Assembly: GCA_025399215.1 (NCBI GenBank)
Contig: MU621280.1
Span: 8,319-33,456 of the forward strand
Reading direction: 5' to 3'
Length of the DNA: 25,138 nt
Origin: Globomyces pollinis-pini
Lineage: Eukaryota > Chytridiomycota > Chytridiomycetes > Rhizophydiales > Globomycetaceae
Part shown: positions 8,230 through 14,885 of the stretch, piece after piece
Numbering within the stretch: the stretch's first letter is position 1
How the letters are laid out: every line of letters starts with the position of its first letter
Position numbers and translations under genes: made by a program
Notes under the pieces: generated by a model
What the model saw: the letters and a program-made list of their open reading frames with translations, nothing else
Told to the model about the DNA's origin: nothing
Database searches by the model: none

Positions 8230-8307
8230 TATAGTTTATGTAAAATGAATCAATCAGATTTAAATCAATTTATTTTTATTTGGAGAAATGTTTTTTTAGG
8301 TTACAGG

Positions 8308-8577
8308 TTATTCTTCAGATTGATTTCTTCTAAAAATGGGTCTTCGAAATCGAACGATATGTTCATTATCGTCATCACGTTTATGGAATGGTGCCAAATC
8401 AGTATCGTCATCACGTTTATGGAATGGTGCTAAATCCGTCTCAACCTCTCTTTTTTGAACACCTTCTTGACGTTTTACGTTCGTATAACTTGTGTAGTAT
8501 GGAATAGGTTCAATTCCTTCTGGAGGAATGGCAACTGCGGCAACAAGAGACAAGAATACAAGATTGATAAATTGCAT
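8308..8577 (-). CDS. Secreted precursor with Lys-Arg-bounded repeat peptides (pheromone-like)
   Basis: 89 aa, single exon, ATG at 8577. Residues 1-16 (MQFINLVFLSLVAAVA) form a textbook signal peptide. A pro-region IPPEGIEPIPYYTSYTNV is followed by dibasic sites at 35-36 (KR), 42-43 (KR), 54-55 (KR), 66-67 (KR), 78-79 (RR) and 83-84 (RR). Cutting after them would release QEGVQ, EVETDLAPFH, DDDTDLAPFH, DDDNEHIVRF and PIF. The two central peptides share the core TDLAPFH. This is the architecture of alpha-factor-like pheromone precursors and other Kex2-processed repeat proteins: signal, pro-region, tandem peptides with dibasic spacers. Peptide sequence and receptor are not recognised. The gene is convergent with SYG1 (stops 78 bp apart) and lies on the same strand as the next two genes, one encoding a 7TM protein. 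Acidic leaders (EVE, DDD) might be trimmed by an aminopeptidase. Confidence 0.78.
   Translation of the reverse strand: MQFINLVFLSLVAAVAIPPEGIEPIPYYTSYTNVKRQEGVQKREVETDLAPFHKRDDDTDLAPFHKRDDDNEHIVRFRRPIFRRNQSEE
8341..8448 (-). repeat. 36-bp tandem repeat encoding the released peptides
   Basis: Two near-identical 36-bp copies (8413-8448 and 8377-8412) each encode a 10-residue peptide plus Lys-Arg. A third diverged copy (8341-8376) keeps the DDD start and dibasic end but has NEHIVRF in place of TDLAPFH. The 36-bp period equals one peptide plus its cleavage site, as expected if the repeats grew by unequal exchange under selection for a peptide product. Confidence 0.85.
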
Positions 8578-10254: not shown

Positions 10255-11200
10255 TTATTTCTTCAATTTGAAGATTAGAGCTCCAATTGAAACTGTATCA
10301 AAAGCTTTTCGTAAATCTATGAAAGTAGCAAAAGTCTCCTCATCCAATGCCGCTCTTCTTCTGCTCGCTATATCAATTAAAGATGCAATGGCAGCTGAAG
10401 TTTCCATTTTCTTTCTGAAGCCAAATTGCCCTTCATACAGCATTTTTGGTCACAGTACGTTTCTAACTTATTCTTAGCAATAGATGTAATCAATTTTAAG
10501 CCGATGTTCATTAGTGTAATACCTCGGTAATCATTACAGTCTAATGAGTCTCCATTGTTTTTAAATATTGGGACAAAAACCCCTGTTTGCCAAGCGGTCG
10601 GTATTTTACTATGCTTCCATATGGAGTTGAGAAGAGAATGTAAGAAGAATAACTGATCTGGATGTGTGTCATCTACACCAAGAAAGCACACTTTCCACAA
10701 TCCAGGTACTATACCGTCAATTCCAGGAGCTTTGTTCATTTTTAATTTTTTGAGGGCAGAAATAACCTCTGTGATTTCTATGTCACGATTCATATTTTCC
10801 AGCGAAATGTCAGAAGGGGTATGGGTACTGTTCATATCGCATCTTTCTTTCCAATACACAGCTAATCGTTGAGCATCAATGTGAGGAGTTGCTAGCTGTT
10901 TGAAGTGATTTTTCCAGGTGTCAAAGATTTCATCTGGTTGGTACGTAGTTTCTCCATTTGGTAGAGTAATTGGAGTGACTAGATTTGTTTTAATTTGGCA
11001 ATGGTAATGTTCCAAAATGCTTTAGAATCATTACTTTTACAGTGAGTAGATAATTTTAGTGCAAATTCATGCCATTCTCCAGCTTGGAAGTTCATGATTA
11101 TTCTATATCCTGCTCGTTTATTTCTCCATAATTGATATGCAACAACTACTATTTGAACTACAGCAGCAGCATAAGCTTGTCGGTTCGCATCATCCACCAT
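10255..11200 (-). pseudogene. Non-LTR (LINE-type) retrotransposon reverse transcriptase remnant
   Basis: Three minus-strand frames carry consecutive parts of one reverse transcriptase. The first piece (11200-10979) ends at LSTHCKSNDSKAFW, a typical pre-RT motif. The second (about 11015-10377) has MNKAPGIDGIVPGLWK, IPTAWQTGVFVPIFK and CNDYRGITLMNIGLKL. The third (10443-10255) has EGQFGFRKKMETSAAI and FATFIDLRKAFDTV, the region with the first catalytic aspartate. Frame changes fall near 10980-11020 and near 10430-10445, the latter beside an A run. The (Y/F)ADD box and everything after it are absent, and no endonuclease or ORF1 was found, so the copy is dead. Losing the 3' part of the element is unlike normal 5' truncation at insertion and points to later deletion. 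Confidence 0.85.
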
Positions 11201-11555
11201 ATGCGTGTAATTCTTAAATGTACCAAAAGCGCAAATGTACCAAAATATGTTAAACGCTATCTTTATTTGAGTTGAACTATTATTGTAACAAATATAAAAT
11301 TAAAAGGGAAATAGAAAACTATATTTAAAATGGCCGACCAAACACAATATCTCCAGTTGTTTTTATGATGACTTCTCTGGACATGGAGTAAGAATTAATA
11401 TAATGAACTGCTAGTAGAAATCGCTTTGTGGTTTCATCTTCAGTCCTTAGTCTTTTCATTCCTTGATAAATCCAAGAGGCGTGGTCTTTTAAGTGGAGTT
11501 GCAACAACTAGAATAAGAAATAATATAAACCTTCACTTTCCTTTGCGTCAGGGCA
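11201..11555. other. Region between retroelement remnant and foldback repeat
   Basis: About 355 bp of AT-rich sequence. An open minus-strand frame (11507-11325) without an ATG at its start reads HASWIYQGMKRLRTEDETTK and further residues. It could be a decayed piece of the adjacent retroelement or of another mobile element, but no family was recognised. The phrase GCAAATGTACCAAAA near 11231, partly repeated at 11218, is a small local duplication. No gene is claimed. Confidence 0.3.
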
Positions 11556-11685
11556 ATTGATGGTTGCATCAGGTAACCCGATGGTTGCATTAGAGGAATT
11601 GATGGATGGATCAGACAGTATGTTCTCTGATACAACCATCAACTCCACTGATGCAACCATCGGTTTAACTGATGCAACCATAATA
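11556..11685. repeat. 130-bp imperfect foldback (inverted repeat)
   Basis: Arm 1 (11556-11614) and arm 2 (11627-11685), each 59 bp, are reverse complements at roughly four positions in five, separated by a 12-nt loop. Each arm is built of a diverged unit of about 21 bp starting GATGGTTGCATCA on one strand and ending TGATGCAACCATC on the other. It could form a long hairpin in DNA or RNA. It resembles a small foldback element or a non-autonomous palindromic repeat. No flanking target-site duplication was identified. Confidence 0.75.
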
Positions 11686-11720
11686 TAAATCAACTGAATG
11701 AAAATAGAATGGCATGAAAA

Positions 11721-11850
11721 TAACTCTAAATAACCCTAAGTAACCCTAATTACTACTAACCCTAAGTAACCCTAATTACTACTAACCTAAGGTAACCCTA
11801 ATTACTACTAACCCTAACTCCAGTAACCCTAACTTCAGAATAACCCTAAT
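11721..11850 (+). repeat. Telobox / interstitial telomere-like array upstream of MGM1
   Basis: Eight copies of AACCCTAA occur in 130 bp (CCCTAA starting at 11734, 11744, 11760, 11770, 11796, 11812, 11827 and 11844). Three 26-bp units run in tandem at 11741-11766, 11767-11792 and 11793-11818, each holding one or two teloboxes around a TTACTACTAA spacer. The motif equals the TTAGGG telomere repeat on the other strand and also the site bound by Tbf1/Teb1-type Myb factors in fungal promoters. The array ends about 40 bp before the MGM1 start codon, so a promoter role is plausible. A relic telomere or telomere-healed break is the alternative. Confidence 0.8.
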
Positions 11851-11890
11851 TTGCCAGTTTGCAGTTGCTTCTTTGTCCGTTGAAATTAAA

Positions 11891-14885
11891 ATGTTCTTCA
11901 AGAACTTTAAAAATTTTAATCCAATAAGAATTCATTCAAGAAATTATATGTTCATACCAAGAGCTGCTTTCTCTTTATTAAGACTACCAATTGCTGCTGC
12001 CGGTACTGGTTTAGGTGTATCCGCTTACTTGAATTATAAACTTGAAAATGCTAAAAAAGAATTCGTTCCCGATTGGTTAAATGAATCTTTAAATAATGCT
12101 AATGATTATTTACAATCATTAGATTTAAACTCTTTAAATTTACCAAAAACTCCTGATTATGATAACTCTCCTATAATCATTAACGATGTAATTAATCATT
12201 TAACTCATCCATTTTAGGTAGAGGTATTAAAAAATATTCATTAAAAATTCATTATAGGATGAGGTATAAAAAATATTCATTAAATTAAATAGGATGAGGT
12301 ATTAAAGAATTCATTCATGTTAGGAAAATATGGTAAAACAAACTCTTTCTAAACCTTTAGTTAAACCAAAAAGCTACTGATTACGATATCCCTATCGTTC
12401 ACTCTCAAATTGACAATAACACACCTAATCAATTAATGGGTCTCACTAAAAGACTCATCGAAATTAGAAACTTATTAAAGTCGATAAACACAAACTCTTC
12501 CTCTGCACTCACTCTCCCTTCAATAGTCGTCATCGGTTCTCAATCTTCTGGAAAATCTTCAGTCTTGGAAGCTATTGTCGGTCATGAATTCTTACCAAAG
12601 TACTCTTTCTTTTTCTTATTGATTTTTAGAGGTTCAAATATGGTCACTCGAAGACCCATTGAATTGACCCTCATTCATACTCCAAATTCTCATCAAGAAT
12701 ACTCGGAATTCCCCCAATTAGGTATACTCACAAAATAGCTAATCTTTCAAAAGGTATAATCAAAAAATAACTAATCTTTCAATAGGTATAGTCACAGACT
12801 AGCTAATCTTTCAAAAGGTATAATCAAAAAATAACTAATCTTTCAAAAGGTATTATTCATACCCATTAGCTAATCTTTAAGGTATATTACAAAACAACTA
12901 ATATCCACAGGTTTAGGAAAAATAACTTCCTTCTCAAAAGTCCAAAAAACCCTCACAGATCTCAACTTGGCCGTAAGTGACGAAGAATGTGTCTCACATA
13001 AACCTATTGAATTGAAAATTTACTCTCCCAACGTCCCCGATCTTACCTTGGTTGATTTGCCAGGTACTTTGATATCCTAACATTAGGTTATATTCAGGTG
13101 GTAACTCGTAATCAACCTATTGCTCTCAAACAAAAAATTATTGATTTGTGTGATGTGTATATTCAGGAACCTAATATTATTTTGGCAGTTTGTGCTGCTG
13201 ATGTGGATTTGGCTAATTCAGAAGGTTTGTATTTTTTATTTCCTTCCTTTTTATGAATTCCAATGAATTATTTATACTTGCTTTTTGCTACCTTGCTTGC
13301 CACTTTGGCTCATTATATTCCTTGTCTATTTTTTTTCTTGTATTATATATGTCTTTAACTTGGCCAAGTTTTATATATCCCTTTATACCATCTGTACTCT
13401 TCAAGTGACTCAAACACTCTTTTTTCATGTATTGACTTTTTATAGCACTTCGATCTAGTCGAGTTGTGGATCCTATGGGTCTGAGAACCATTGGTGTTAT
13501 TACCAAGATGGATTTAGTCGAACCTGCTTTGGGTGTTTCAATTCTCAAAGTAACGTTATATATCTTAACAATAGAACAAAAATTTTCCTCTCTCGCATGG
13601 TTATATTGGTGTAGTCAACAAATCCACAGGTGCCAAAAATTCTACAGCAATGATTCAAAATGAACAAGCATATTTCAAAAAACATACTGAATACGACCCT
13701 ACTATGGTAGGATCCACCACCCTTCGTCAAAAATTAATGGAAGTTTTGGAAACACATATGGGTAGATCATTAAACCATATTGTGGATGCTGTAGAAGTGG
13801 AACTAGATGATGCCCGATACGATTTTAAAGTTCATTTTAATGATGTTCGTATTTCACCAGAGTCTTATGTAGCTGAAACTATGGATGCGTTCAAACAACG
13901 ATTCAAAGAATTCAAGAAACAATTTGATAAACAAAGTGTTAAAGAGAGTATTCGATTGATGTTGGAACAGCGTATGCTTGATATTGCATCTGAACAATAT
14001 TATGATGATTCAGTCAAATTGGCAGGATTACCAAAGGAATGTGGTGATAGTATGATGTGGGATAATAAGGTGAATCAAGCTTCTGCGCAATTGACTCGAT
14101 CAGGAGTTGGTAAAGCATCTGTACAATTAGTAGTTGATTTAATTTCATCCAAATTAACTGAAATCACTACTACTGAAGCTTGGAAATATCATGCCAATGC
14201 CCGACAACAAGTACTACAATTGGCCACTGAATTGTTACGATCCAAATTCCATATCACTATTGACCAAGTTGAGAATACTATCAAACCTTTAAAGTTTGAA
14301 GTAGATGTAACTGAATTGGAATGGGCTGAAGGTCAACGTCGAGCTATTGATACTCTACAACGACAATTAAATGAAAGTCAACAAGAATTAAAGGAAATCA
14401 AATCTCAAATTGGAAGACGTAAATTTCGTCATGGTACCCGATATATAAATTACGTTGATAATGCTCATCCTGATGAACCTATCCCCGAATCACCCTTCCC
14501 TGCACCCATCATTACACAAATTCGTCAAGCTTTACATACACAATCCCGTATCACCATCCTCACTCAACGACTCCAAGCCATCAAATCACGTCAATGTTCT
14601 TCACTCGCCTCCAAACCTTGTTGTCCTGAAACCTTCCTTTCAGTAGTATCCGAAAAACTTGCCACCACTGCCGTCATGTTTATCCAAATTGAACTTTTAA
14701 ATGAATTCTTTTTCCAATTACCTCGAGAAGTTGATAATCGAATGTACTACTCACTTGATCGACAACAAGTTGAAGCATTTTGTAAGGAAAATCCTGGAAT
14801 TGAAACTCATTTACGAGCCCAAGAACGAAAACAAACTTTGGAATTGGTGATGACAAAGTTACGTGATTTAACTAGAAATATTTGA
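11891..14885 (+). CDS. MGM1: Mitochondrial dynamin-like GTPase (Mgm1/OPA1)
   Basis: Preferred exons: 11891-12187, microexons 12218-12223, 12258-12263, 12293-12298 and 12324-12332, then 12361-12599, 12630-12721, 12911-13063, 13087-13224, 13446-13549, 13575-14885; 786 aa. The protein drives inner-membrane fusion and cristae shaping in mitochondria. A basic presequence is followed by a membrane segment ([18 protein letters not shown]) typical of Mgm1/OPA1. The GTPase has G1 GSQSSGKSS (167-175), the G2 region around [12 protein letters not shown]3 DLPG (267-270), G4 TKMD (335-338) and GYIGVVNKS (359-367). The long last exon holds the middle and effector regions, with coiled coil around ALHTQSR and [13 protein letters not shown]. 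Start is the first in-frame ATG. Two intron arrays interrupt the gene (separate entries), and one intron (13225-13445) is 221 nt. If the microexons are skipped the protein is simply 9 residues shorter. Confidence 0.93.
12188..12360 (+). other. Array of five short introns separated by 6-9 nt in-frame microexons
   Basis: Between two MGM1 exons the sequence reads as five GT...AG introns (12188-12217, 12224-12257, 12264-12292, 12299-12323, 12333-12360; 30, 34, 29, 25 and 28 nt) separated by GTAGAG, GATGAG, GATGAG and GAAAATATG. Every boundary is phase 0, adding Val-Glu, Asp-Glu, Asp-Glu and Glu-Asn-Met. The units with GTAGAG/GATGAG and their following introns (GTAT...ATTCATT...AG) are clearly related copies. 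The acidic insert falls between the membrane segment and the GTPase domain. Splicing the whole 173 nt as a single intron is also in frame, so inclusion of each microexon needs transcript data. Confidence 0.7.
12722..12910 (+). repeat. Six head-to-tail intron units with zero-length exons
   Basis: The intron between the PQLG and LGKI codons of MGM1 consists of six consecutive complete intron units: 12722-12753, 12754-12785, 12786-12817, 12818-12849, 12850-12881 (32 nt each) and 12882-12910 (29 nt). Each starts GTAT, carries a CTAAT branch-like site 11-13 nt before its end, and ends in AG directly followed by the next GT. Units 2 and 4 differ at one position, and units 1 and 3 at three, so units 1-2 and 3-4 look like a duplicated 64-nt dimer. 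The total is 189 nt against 23-37 nt for nearly all other introns here. Removing all of it joins the exons in frame (Gly codon split G|GT). Confidence 0.92.
13225..13445 (+). other. Unusually long, pyrimidine-rich intron of MGM1
   Basis: A single 221-nt GT...AG intron between the codons for SE and ALRSS. It is strongly T/C-biased on the coding strand with no internal AG|GT junction, so it is not an intron array like the one upstream. No coding, RNA or repeat feature was seen inside. The flanking protein sequence is continuous and conserved, so the exon join is firm. Confidence 0.75.

Follow-up and report, generated by a model that had tools for sequence, protein, structure and literature searches.

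How does a transcript lose six intron-like units that follow one another with no exon between them? The question is posed by the chytrid Globomyces pollinis-pini, order Rhizophydiales, in which such an array lies within a dynamin gene of the MGM1/OPA1 type, at positions 12722-12910 (+) of a 25,138-nt stretch of contig MU621280.1 (GenBank assembly GCA_025399215.1; the whole stretch is called the window here). The array is real, ordinary in its parts, and unusual in its architecture and frequency: a tandem intron duplication with the potential for recursive splicing. Its sequence makes it probable that we are dealing with six complete U2-type mini-introns in tandem, separated by zero-length exons, which would have been duplicated in place and could be excised unit by unit in any order.

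Direct reading and a script agree on five units of 32 nt and one of 29 nt, each of which starts with GTAT, contains CTAAT, ends with AG, and abuts the next, giving five internal AG|GT junctions. Unit 1 (12722-12753) reads GTATAC...GCTAAT...AG, and unit 2 (12754-12785) reads GTATAA...ACTAAT...AG. The interior of unit 3 (12786-12817) is 88% identical to that of unit 1, and the interior of unit 4 (12818-12849) is 96% identical to that of unit 2; units 5 (12850-12881) and 6 (12882-12910, the 29-nt unit) have diverged in sequence with their signals intact. Tandem Repeats Finder reports units 1-2 and 3-4 as a near-identical dimer repeat (period 64, 94% matches, score 242). The preliminary description of the window had noted the six abutting units, the dimer, and the re-creation of an AG|GT junction by each removal, and all three observations were borne out.

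A parser built to link abutting GTA...branch...AG units into chains found two on the plus strand of the window, the six-unit array and a two-unit chain at 11766 in TAACCC-rich sequence. It found no chain of at least two units on the minus strand of the window or on either reversed strand, and a chance origin of the six-unit array in the window is excluded. We also pattern-searched the draft genome (18.5 Mb in 459 contigs) and assembled a survey sample of 57 non-redundant stretches (200,515 bases, the window included), most of them fetched by pattern matches. The fetched loci held 9 distinct chains of at least three units, and the 12 reversed-control chains were all of two units, a contrast of 9 to 0 that is biased because these loci were mostly picked with forward signals.

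Comparison at the protein level shows that no part of the array is represented in the gene product. The deposited G. pollinis-pini protein (P0001) is contiguous across the array, and EFPQLGLGK is contiguous at the same point in the homologs of Polyrhizophydium (P0005), Fimicolochytrium (P0009), and Obelidium (P0012); exactly 189 nt therefore intervene, and no residue is added. The upstream exon (12630-12721, +) ends ...EFPQL G|, and the downstream exon (12911-13063, +) starts |GT TTA GGA AAA (GLGKITSF). Removal of the whole array restores the frame and leaves the junction TTAG|GTTT.

The host gene encodes a dynamin GTPase domain together with the MGM1 lipid-interacting stalk. Pfam matched PF24550 (LIS_MGM1, E = 4.4e-15) and, in an exon piece farther upstream, PF00350 (Dynamin_N, E = 8.4e-10, profile positions 1-25 of 168). 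The LIS_MGM1 match lies in the last exon region (13650-14885, +), which is 100% identical to P0001 and also contains a Dynamin_M match below the Pfam cut-off. The likely first exon (11891-12187, +) encodes an N-terminal presequence and a hydrophobic segment and is missing from the P0001 model; it gave no match in a BLASTP search at E ≤ 1 against 62 fetched homologs, so its assignment rests on its frame and its presequence-like make-up. A gene finder recovered the 189-nt interval unaided, along with ordinary introns of 30 nt (12600-12629, +), 23 nt (13064-13086, +), and 25 nt (13550-13574, +) and one of 221 nt (13225-13445, +). The finder, used with a hand-set model, scores the donor, a branch site near the 3′ end, the acceptor, and the length and nothing inside long introns; it adds two introns before the MGM1 gene and one at its end, which we took as over-prediction, and also predicts weak genes in noncoding stretches. 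A re-trained version was dropped: it moved the 221-nt intron to 230 nt, and the array was not among its high-confidence introns.

Upstream of the gene, we observed TTAGGG-like / TAACCCTAA telomere-type repeats directly before the MGM1 (window 11718-11851, +) and CCT zeta start regions (L048 upstream of 1450, C222:13112); such repeats are perhaps a promoter element in this genome. Window 11543-11681 (+) contains a 21-nt repeat around TTGATGGTTGCATCAGG followed by reverse-complement repeats, so that opposed minisatellite blocks stand upstream of MGM1.

Could single units be recognized by the host spliceosome? Each has GT...AG ends, a branch-like site near its 3′ end, and a host-like size, as expected of a U2-type intron. 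In the survey sample, 393 introns with coding flanks were predicted, 333 of them ≤45 nt (median 29 nt, 2.5-97.5% range 21-37 nt), in line with the earlier claim that the units have the size and signals of ordinary introns. The Globomyces spliceosome works mostly on introns of ∼21-37 nt, presumably by intron definition, and single units should therefore be recognizable separately. Most likely, judging from these signals, each unit would be spliced separately and in any order through zero-length exons: carrying a full set of donor, branch site, and acceptor, it would be recognized and excised alone, and its excision would rejoin AG to GT, leaving a shorter and still spliceable train.

The same mRNA results from any order of removal and from a jump from the first donor to the last acceptor. 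Because all complete paths converge, growth of the array is free for the protein, given complete removal. Every one of the 63 partial-retention combinations (63/63) leads to an early stop, and complete removal should thus be under selection; the same count led us to reject a reading of the array as a coding repeat. The RNA fold of the array is ordinary (z = −0.85), so no structure was seen to join the distal sites, and structure-aided one-step removal was rejected on that ground.

Where did the units come from? In 15 arrays (54 units), unit identity was higher within arrays than between them (0.663 vs. 0.575, permutation p = 0.0005), and this likeness persisted without the three clearest duplications (p = 0.001). 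A whole-genome search with a unit-2 pattern allowing ≤3 mismatches matched only three units of the window array and no copy outside it. Besides the window dimer, an ABAB dimer duplication with identical copies was found in the array of an EF-hand protein gene. Taken together, the likeness of neighbors, the lack of window-unit copies elsewhere, and the dimers favor local tandem duplication of DNA, and the sequence of the array points to that origin, which the preliminary description had also preferred. A single ∼30-nt intron would have been copied in place, followed later by a dimer of two introns, with unequal exchange or slippage of the DNA as the mechanism. The further suggestion that the amplification had been caught in the act holds for units 1-4, which are close copies, but not for units 5 and 6, which have diverged, or for the arrays at large, which are a standing feature of the genome. 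In 9 of 15 arrays the following exon opens with GT, a higher share than after single introns (65 of 333; p = 0.001); AG upstream of the array is not enriched (3/15 arrays vs. 103/333 single introns). Microhomology between the GT of the intron start and the GT of exon 2, a pattern that we noticed after the fact, may guide exact duplication.

The arrangement recurs: 17 trains of 2-7 units, the window array included, were read in the ∼200 kb of mostly pattern-fetched sequence. Alignment to solved structures shows no gap at the array in gamma-tubulin (4 units, 108 nt), TPS1 (trehalose-6-P synthase; 4 units, 118 nt), coatomer gamma (2 units, 58 nt), and cytochrome c peroxidase (2 units, 59 nt). The CCT zeta train (3 units, 94 nt) splits the start codon, AT^G, and the alignment begins just past the junction. 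Pfam EF-hand matches extend past the junction in the EF-hand protein (7 units, 185 nt), and a Pfam match spans it in an ERp29-like protein (3 units, 100 nt) and, below the cut-off, in a kinase (C25; 2 units, 47 nt). The match lies downstream of the junction for the train in the N-terminal region of a chitin synthase (C330; 3 units, 86 nt), and a LEU1-like protein (3 units, 92 nt) has a weak aconitase match below the Pfam cut-off. An open frame crosses the junction, with no family match, in a DCAF7-like WD protein (4 units, 123 nt), a small membrane protein (C88; 4 units, 131 nt), and the C31 (4 units, 112 nt), C2 (3 units, 92 nt), C130 (3 units, 95 nt), and C70 (2 units, 55 nt) genes. What we take to be the DCAF7-like and C88 proteins were named by recognition. 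Eight junction peptides were compared with Pfam, and only the EF-hand and ERp29 peptides matched; of four peptides searched at E ≤ 1, chitin synthase passed the cut-off, the kinase and aconitase matches fell below it, and the DCAF7-like peptide had none. The DCAF7-like and LEU1-like junction peptides had no match to solved structures at E ≤ 0.001.

Whole-genome pattern counts extend the picture. The pattern CTAATN{3,12}AGGTATN{8,25}CTAAT has 24 matches, several of them chained, compared with 5 for its reverse. AGGTATN{14,30}AGGTAT has 299 matches compared with 118 at a spacing of N{70,86}, and the reversed patterns have 166 and 168. Of the first 100 places listed, 73 have a GT-to-GT spacing of 26-32 nt (p = 6e-6 in a chi-square test against a uniform distribution, in which chained matches are not independent), and the N{70,86} control is itself raised at 89-92 nt, or roughly three units. 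CTAAY stands between two AG|GTA sites in 148 places (52 for the reversed pattern) compared with 43 for the permuted motif YACTA. AG|GTA places that chain in steps of 27-32 nt occur at C12:42083-42340 (+; eight overlapping matches at 27-29-nt steps), C194:3409-3559 (−), and C68:15902-16015 (+); they suggest longer trains, and the exact 27-nt step of the C68 place could be that of a coding repeat. Seventeen trains were read, and the genome probably holds a few hundred tandem units.

Would removal in a single step account for the array equally well? The array could be a minisatellite within one 189-nt intron, spliced from the first donor to the last acceptor, with the internal signals as unused passengers. 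One-step removal would give an identical mRNA, and P0001 is compatible with a single removed interval. Several results weigh against unit-wise excision or the tests that support it. The preliminary description had placed one-step removal of 189 nt outside the local size range, a claim refuted by the plain 221-nt intron of the same gene, which does not tile into units, is spliced with support from the protein, and is read through in P0001; the argument from length thus fails, and one-step excision is possible. Other predicted long introns also lack tiling: 54 of the 60 introns >45 nt in the survey, a list that includes false predictions, do not tile into units. Six of the 60 tile exactly into GT...AG units compared with 0.9 expected from shuffles, but 5 of these 6 lie in pattern-fetched stretches, and the excess is thus not unbiased. 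The best coding-flanked GT..AG interval tiled for only 5 of 42 seed junctions, by a score too noisy to be informative. Among the pattern controls, the permuted motif ATYCA was high at 87 matches; these include chained ones, which may come from arrays that use different branch sites. Looser patterns gave no clear excess over their reverses in the genome (130 vs. 258 and 489 vs. 442), and many matches to a two-unit pattern (52 vs. 36) are due to chance; we therefore relied on the stricter patterns, the spacing control, chains of at least three units, and the reading frames.

We nevertheless consider the single-intron minisatellite unlikely. The internal donors, branch sites, and acceptors look no worse than those at the ends of the array and stand at the preferred spacing, and a spliceosome that favors ∼29-nt introns should use them. 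In duplicated units (1-4 of the window array and 2-4 of the TPS1 array), none of the 11 variable columns is among the 22 signal columns (P = 0.005), as expected if the internal signals are used, although this is a small test on arrays that were themselves picked up by patterns containing the signals. Diverged units retain their signals as well, with a branch-like YTRAY motif near the 3′ end in 52 of the 54 units of 15 arrays, although many were found by such motifs. A different origin is conceivable too, in which excised introns were inserted at AG|GT by reverse splicing followed by reverse transcription, unit by unit, as transposition without DNA slippage. Exact AG|GT insertions are not automatic under slippage, and 5 of 15 arrays are flanked by neither an upstream AG nor a downstream GT, which leaves them outside the microhomology idea. 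This route is nonetheless improbable: units are closer to their own neighbors than to the units of other arrays, the window unit has no second genome copy within 3 mismatches, and the ABAB dimers of the window array and the C264 array suggest duplication of two units at the DNA level. As for an assembly error that collapsed or expanded a repeat, the genome is a draft and unit 2 hardly differs from unit 4, but the 64-nt dimer is shorter than an ordinary read, units 5 and 6 and most other arrays consist of clearly different units, and the same in-frame layout is found at 17 loci; we regard such an error as extremely improbable. Tandem mini-introns, duplicated in place and removed unit by unit, remain our preferred account of the array.

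What might such trains do for the genes that carry them? The MGM1-like gene has a probable second array at 12188-12360 (+), with five introns (30, 34, 29, 25, and 28 nt) identified by the gene finder and by reading. Here, the introns are separated by micro-exons of 6, 6, 6, and 9 nt (GTAGAG, GATGAG, GATGAG, and GAAAATATG), and the spliced protein reads ...INDVEDEDEENMLNQ...; Tandem Repeats Finder reports periods of 35-39. Introns 2 and 3, each with a GATGAG, look like tandem copies, and the region would be an exon-carrying version of tandem-intron duplication. The P0001 model begins within it, and the frame is kept even if all four micro-exons are skipped, so that micro-exon inclusion is unproven. 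We give about even weight to a broader proposal in which intron trains are a genome-wide, satellite-like class of array that can grow and shrink in place at almost no cost, its units being removable in any order, and in which duplications that take along exon bases, as that at 12188-12360 seems to have done, would create new introns and codons, a running engine of intron gain.

How new introns originate has been asked for a long time, and proven recent examples are few. The trains are of varied age, from identical dimers to diverged units, and thus lend themselves to tests of copy-number change between isolates and of selection on internal signals. They allow the limits of intron definition to be probed at 23-38 nt and could serve as a small natural model of recursive splicing in which each step would remove ∼30 nt. 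Gene models without zero-length exons conceal this architecture.

Two further features of the window lie upstream of the dynamin gene. A short ORF at 8305-8577 (−) encodes a secreted-looking precursor with a hydrophobic N terminus, in which a 12-residue unit with KR sites, TDLAPFHKRDDD, occurs twice, the DNA repeat being 36 nt; we take it to resemble a Kex2-processed repeat peptide precursor. The ORF at 10377-11015 (−) reads APGIDGIVPGLWK... NDYRGITLMNIGLKL and has no match in Pfam at E ≤ 0.001; by eye, we presume a likeness to a fragment of a LINE-type reverse transcriptase.

How does the array compare with known systems? Among the matches listed in a search of the open-licence literature, none described exon-free arrays of complete spliceosomal introns in Globomyces or other chytrids. 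Among the closest systems are the stwintrons of fungi, complex introns built of U2 introns that are removed by consecutive reactions, some of which proliferate; as the cited accounts portray them, a splice element of one intron is split by the other, the order is fixed, and in [D1,2] stwintrons, use of the distal sites shifts the frame (PMC8469720, PMC9024468). None of the Globomyces units, unlike stwintrons so described, interrupts its neighbor, and the exact mRNA results whether the units leave in whatever order or all at once. We rejected a stwintron reading because all units are complete and abutting and no signal is interrupted.

Dual-specific AGGT sites have been described in tandem repeats of human UBC and in the duplicated intron 3 of VCX3A (PMC10809524), and AGGT likewise stands at the five internal sites of our array, as far as sequence can tell. 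In both cases, tandem repeat units are bounded by AGGT acceptor/donor sites, and repeat expansion is a route to introns. The units of UBC are coding and the VCX3A case is a single polymorphism in that account, whereas the Globomyces units are complete noncoding introns that form trains of up to seven and are spread over many genes of one genome. For Cryptococcus CNN00420, an expanding repeat was also reported to have led to intron gain (PMC2395259); as we interpret that report, it concerns one gene with an intron-bearing repeat and an exon between the introns, whereas in Globomyces the copies adjoin with no intervening exon. In introner-like elements, known from fungi and algae, spliceosomal introns likewise multiply within a genome (PMC4457414, PMC8469720). 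Introners are dispersed copies, whereas the window unit has none outside its own array at ≤3 mismatches; an introner reading was rejected because the window unit, the one tested, has no similar copies at unrelated loci.

Recursive-splicing points in flies and vertebrates divide long introns of many kilobases. The Globomyces segments are instead complete introns of 23-38 nt, duplicated copies of one another in a fungus with tiny introns. The shared principle is the ratchet point, or zero-length exon, described in flies and vertebrates (PMC8605326, PMC5126111): juxtaposed AG|GT regenerates a splice site at each step and the final mRNA is unchanged. At 189 nt rather than kilobases, the array would work like recursive splicing without being a member of that class.

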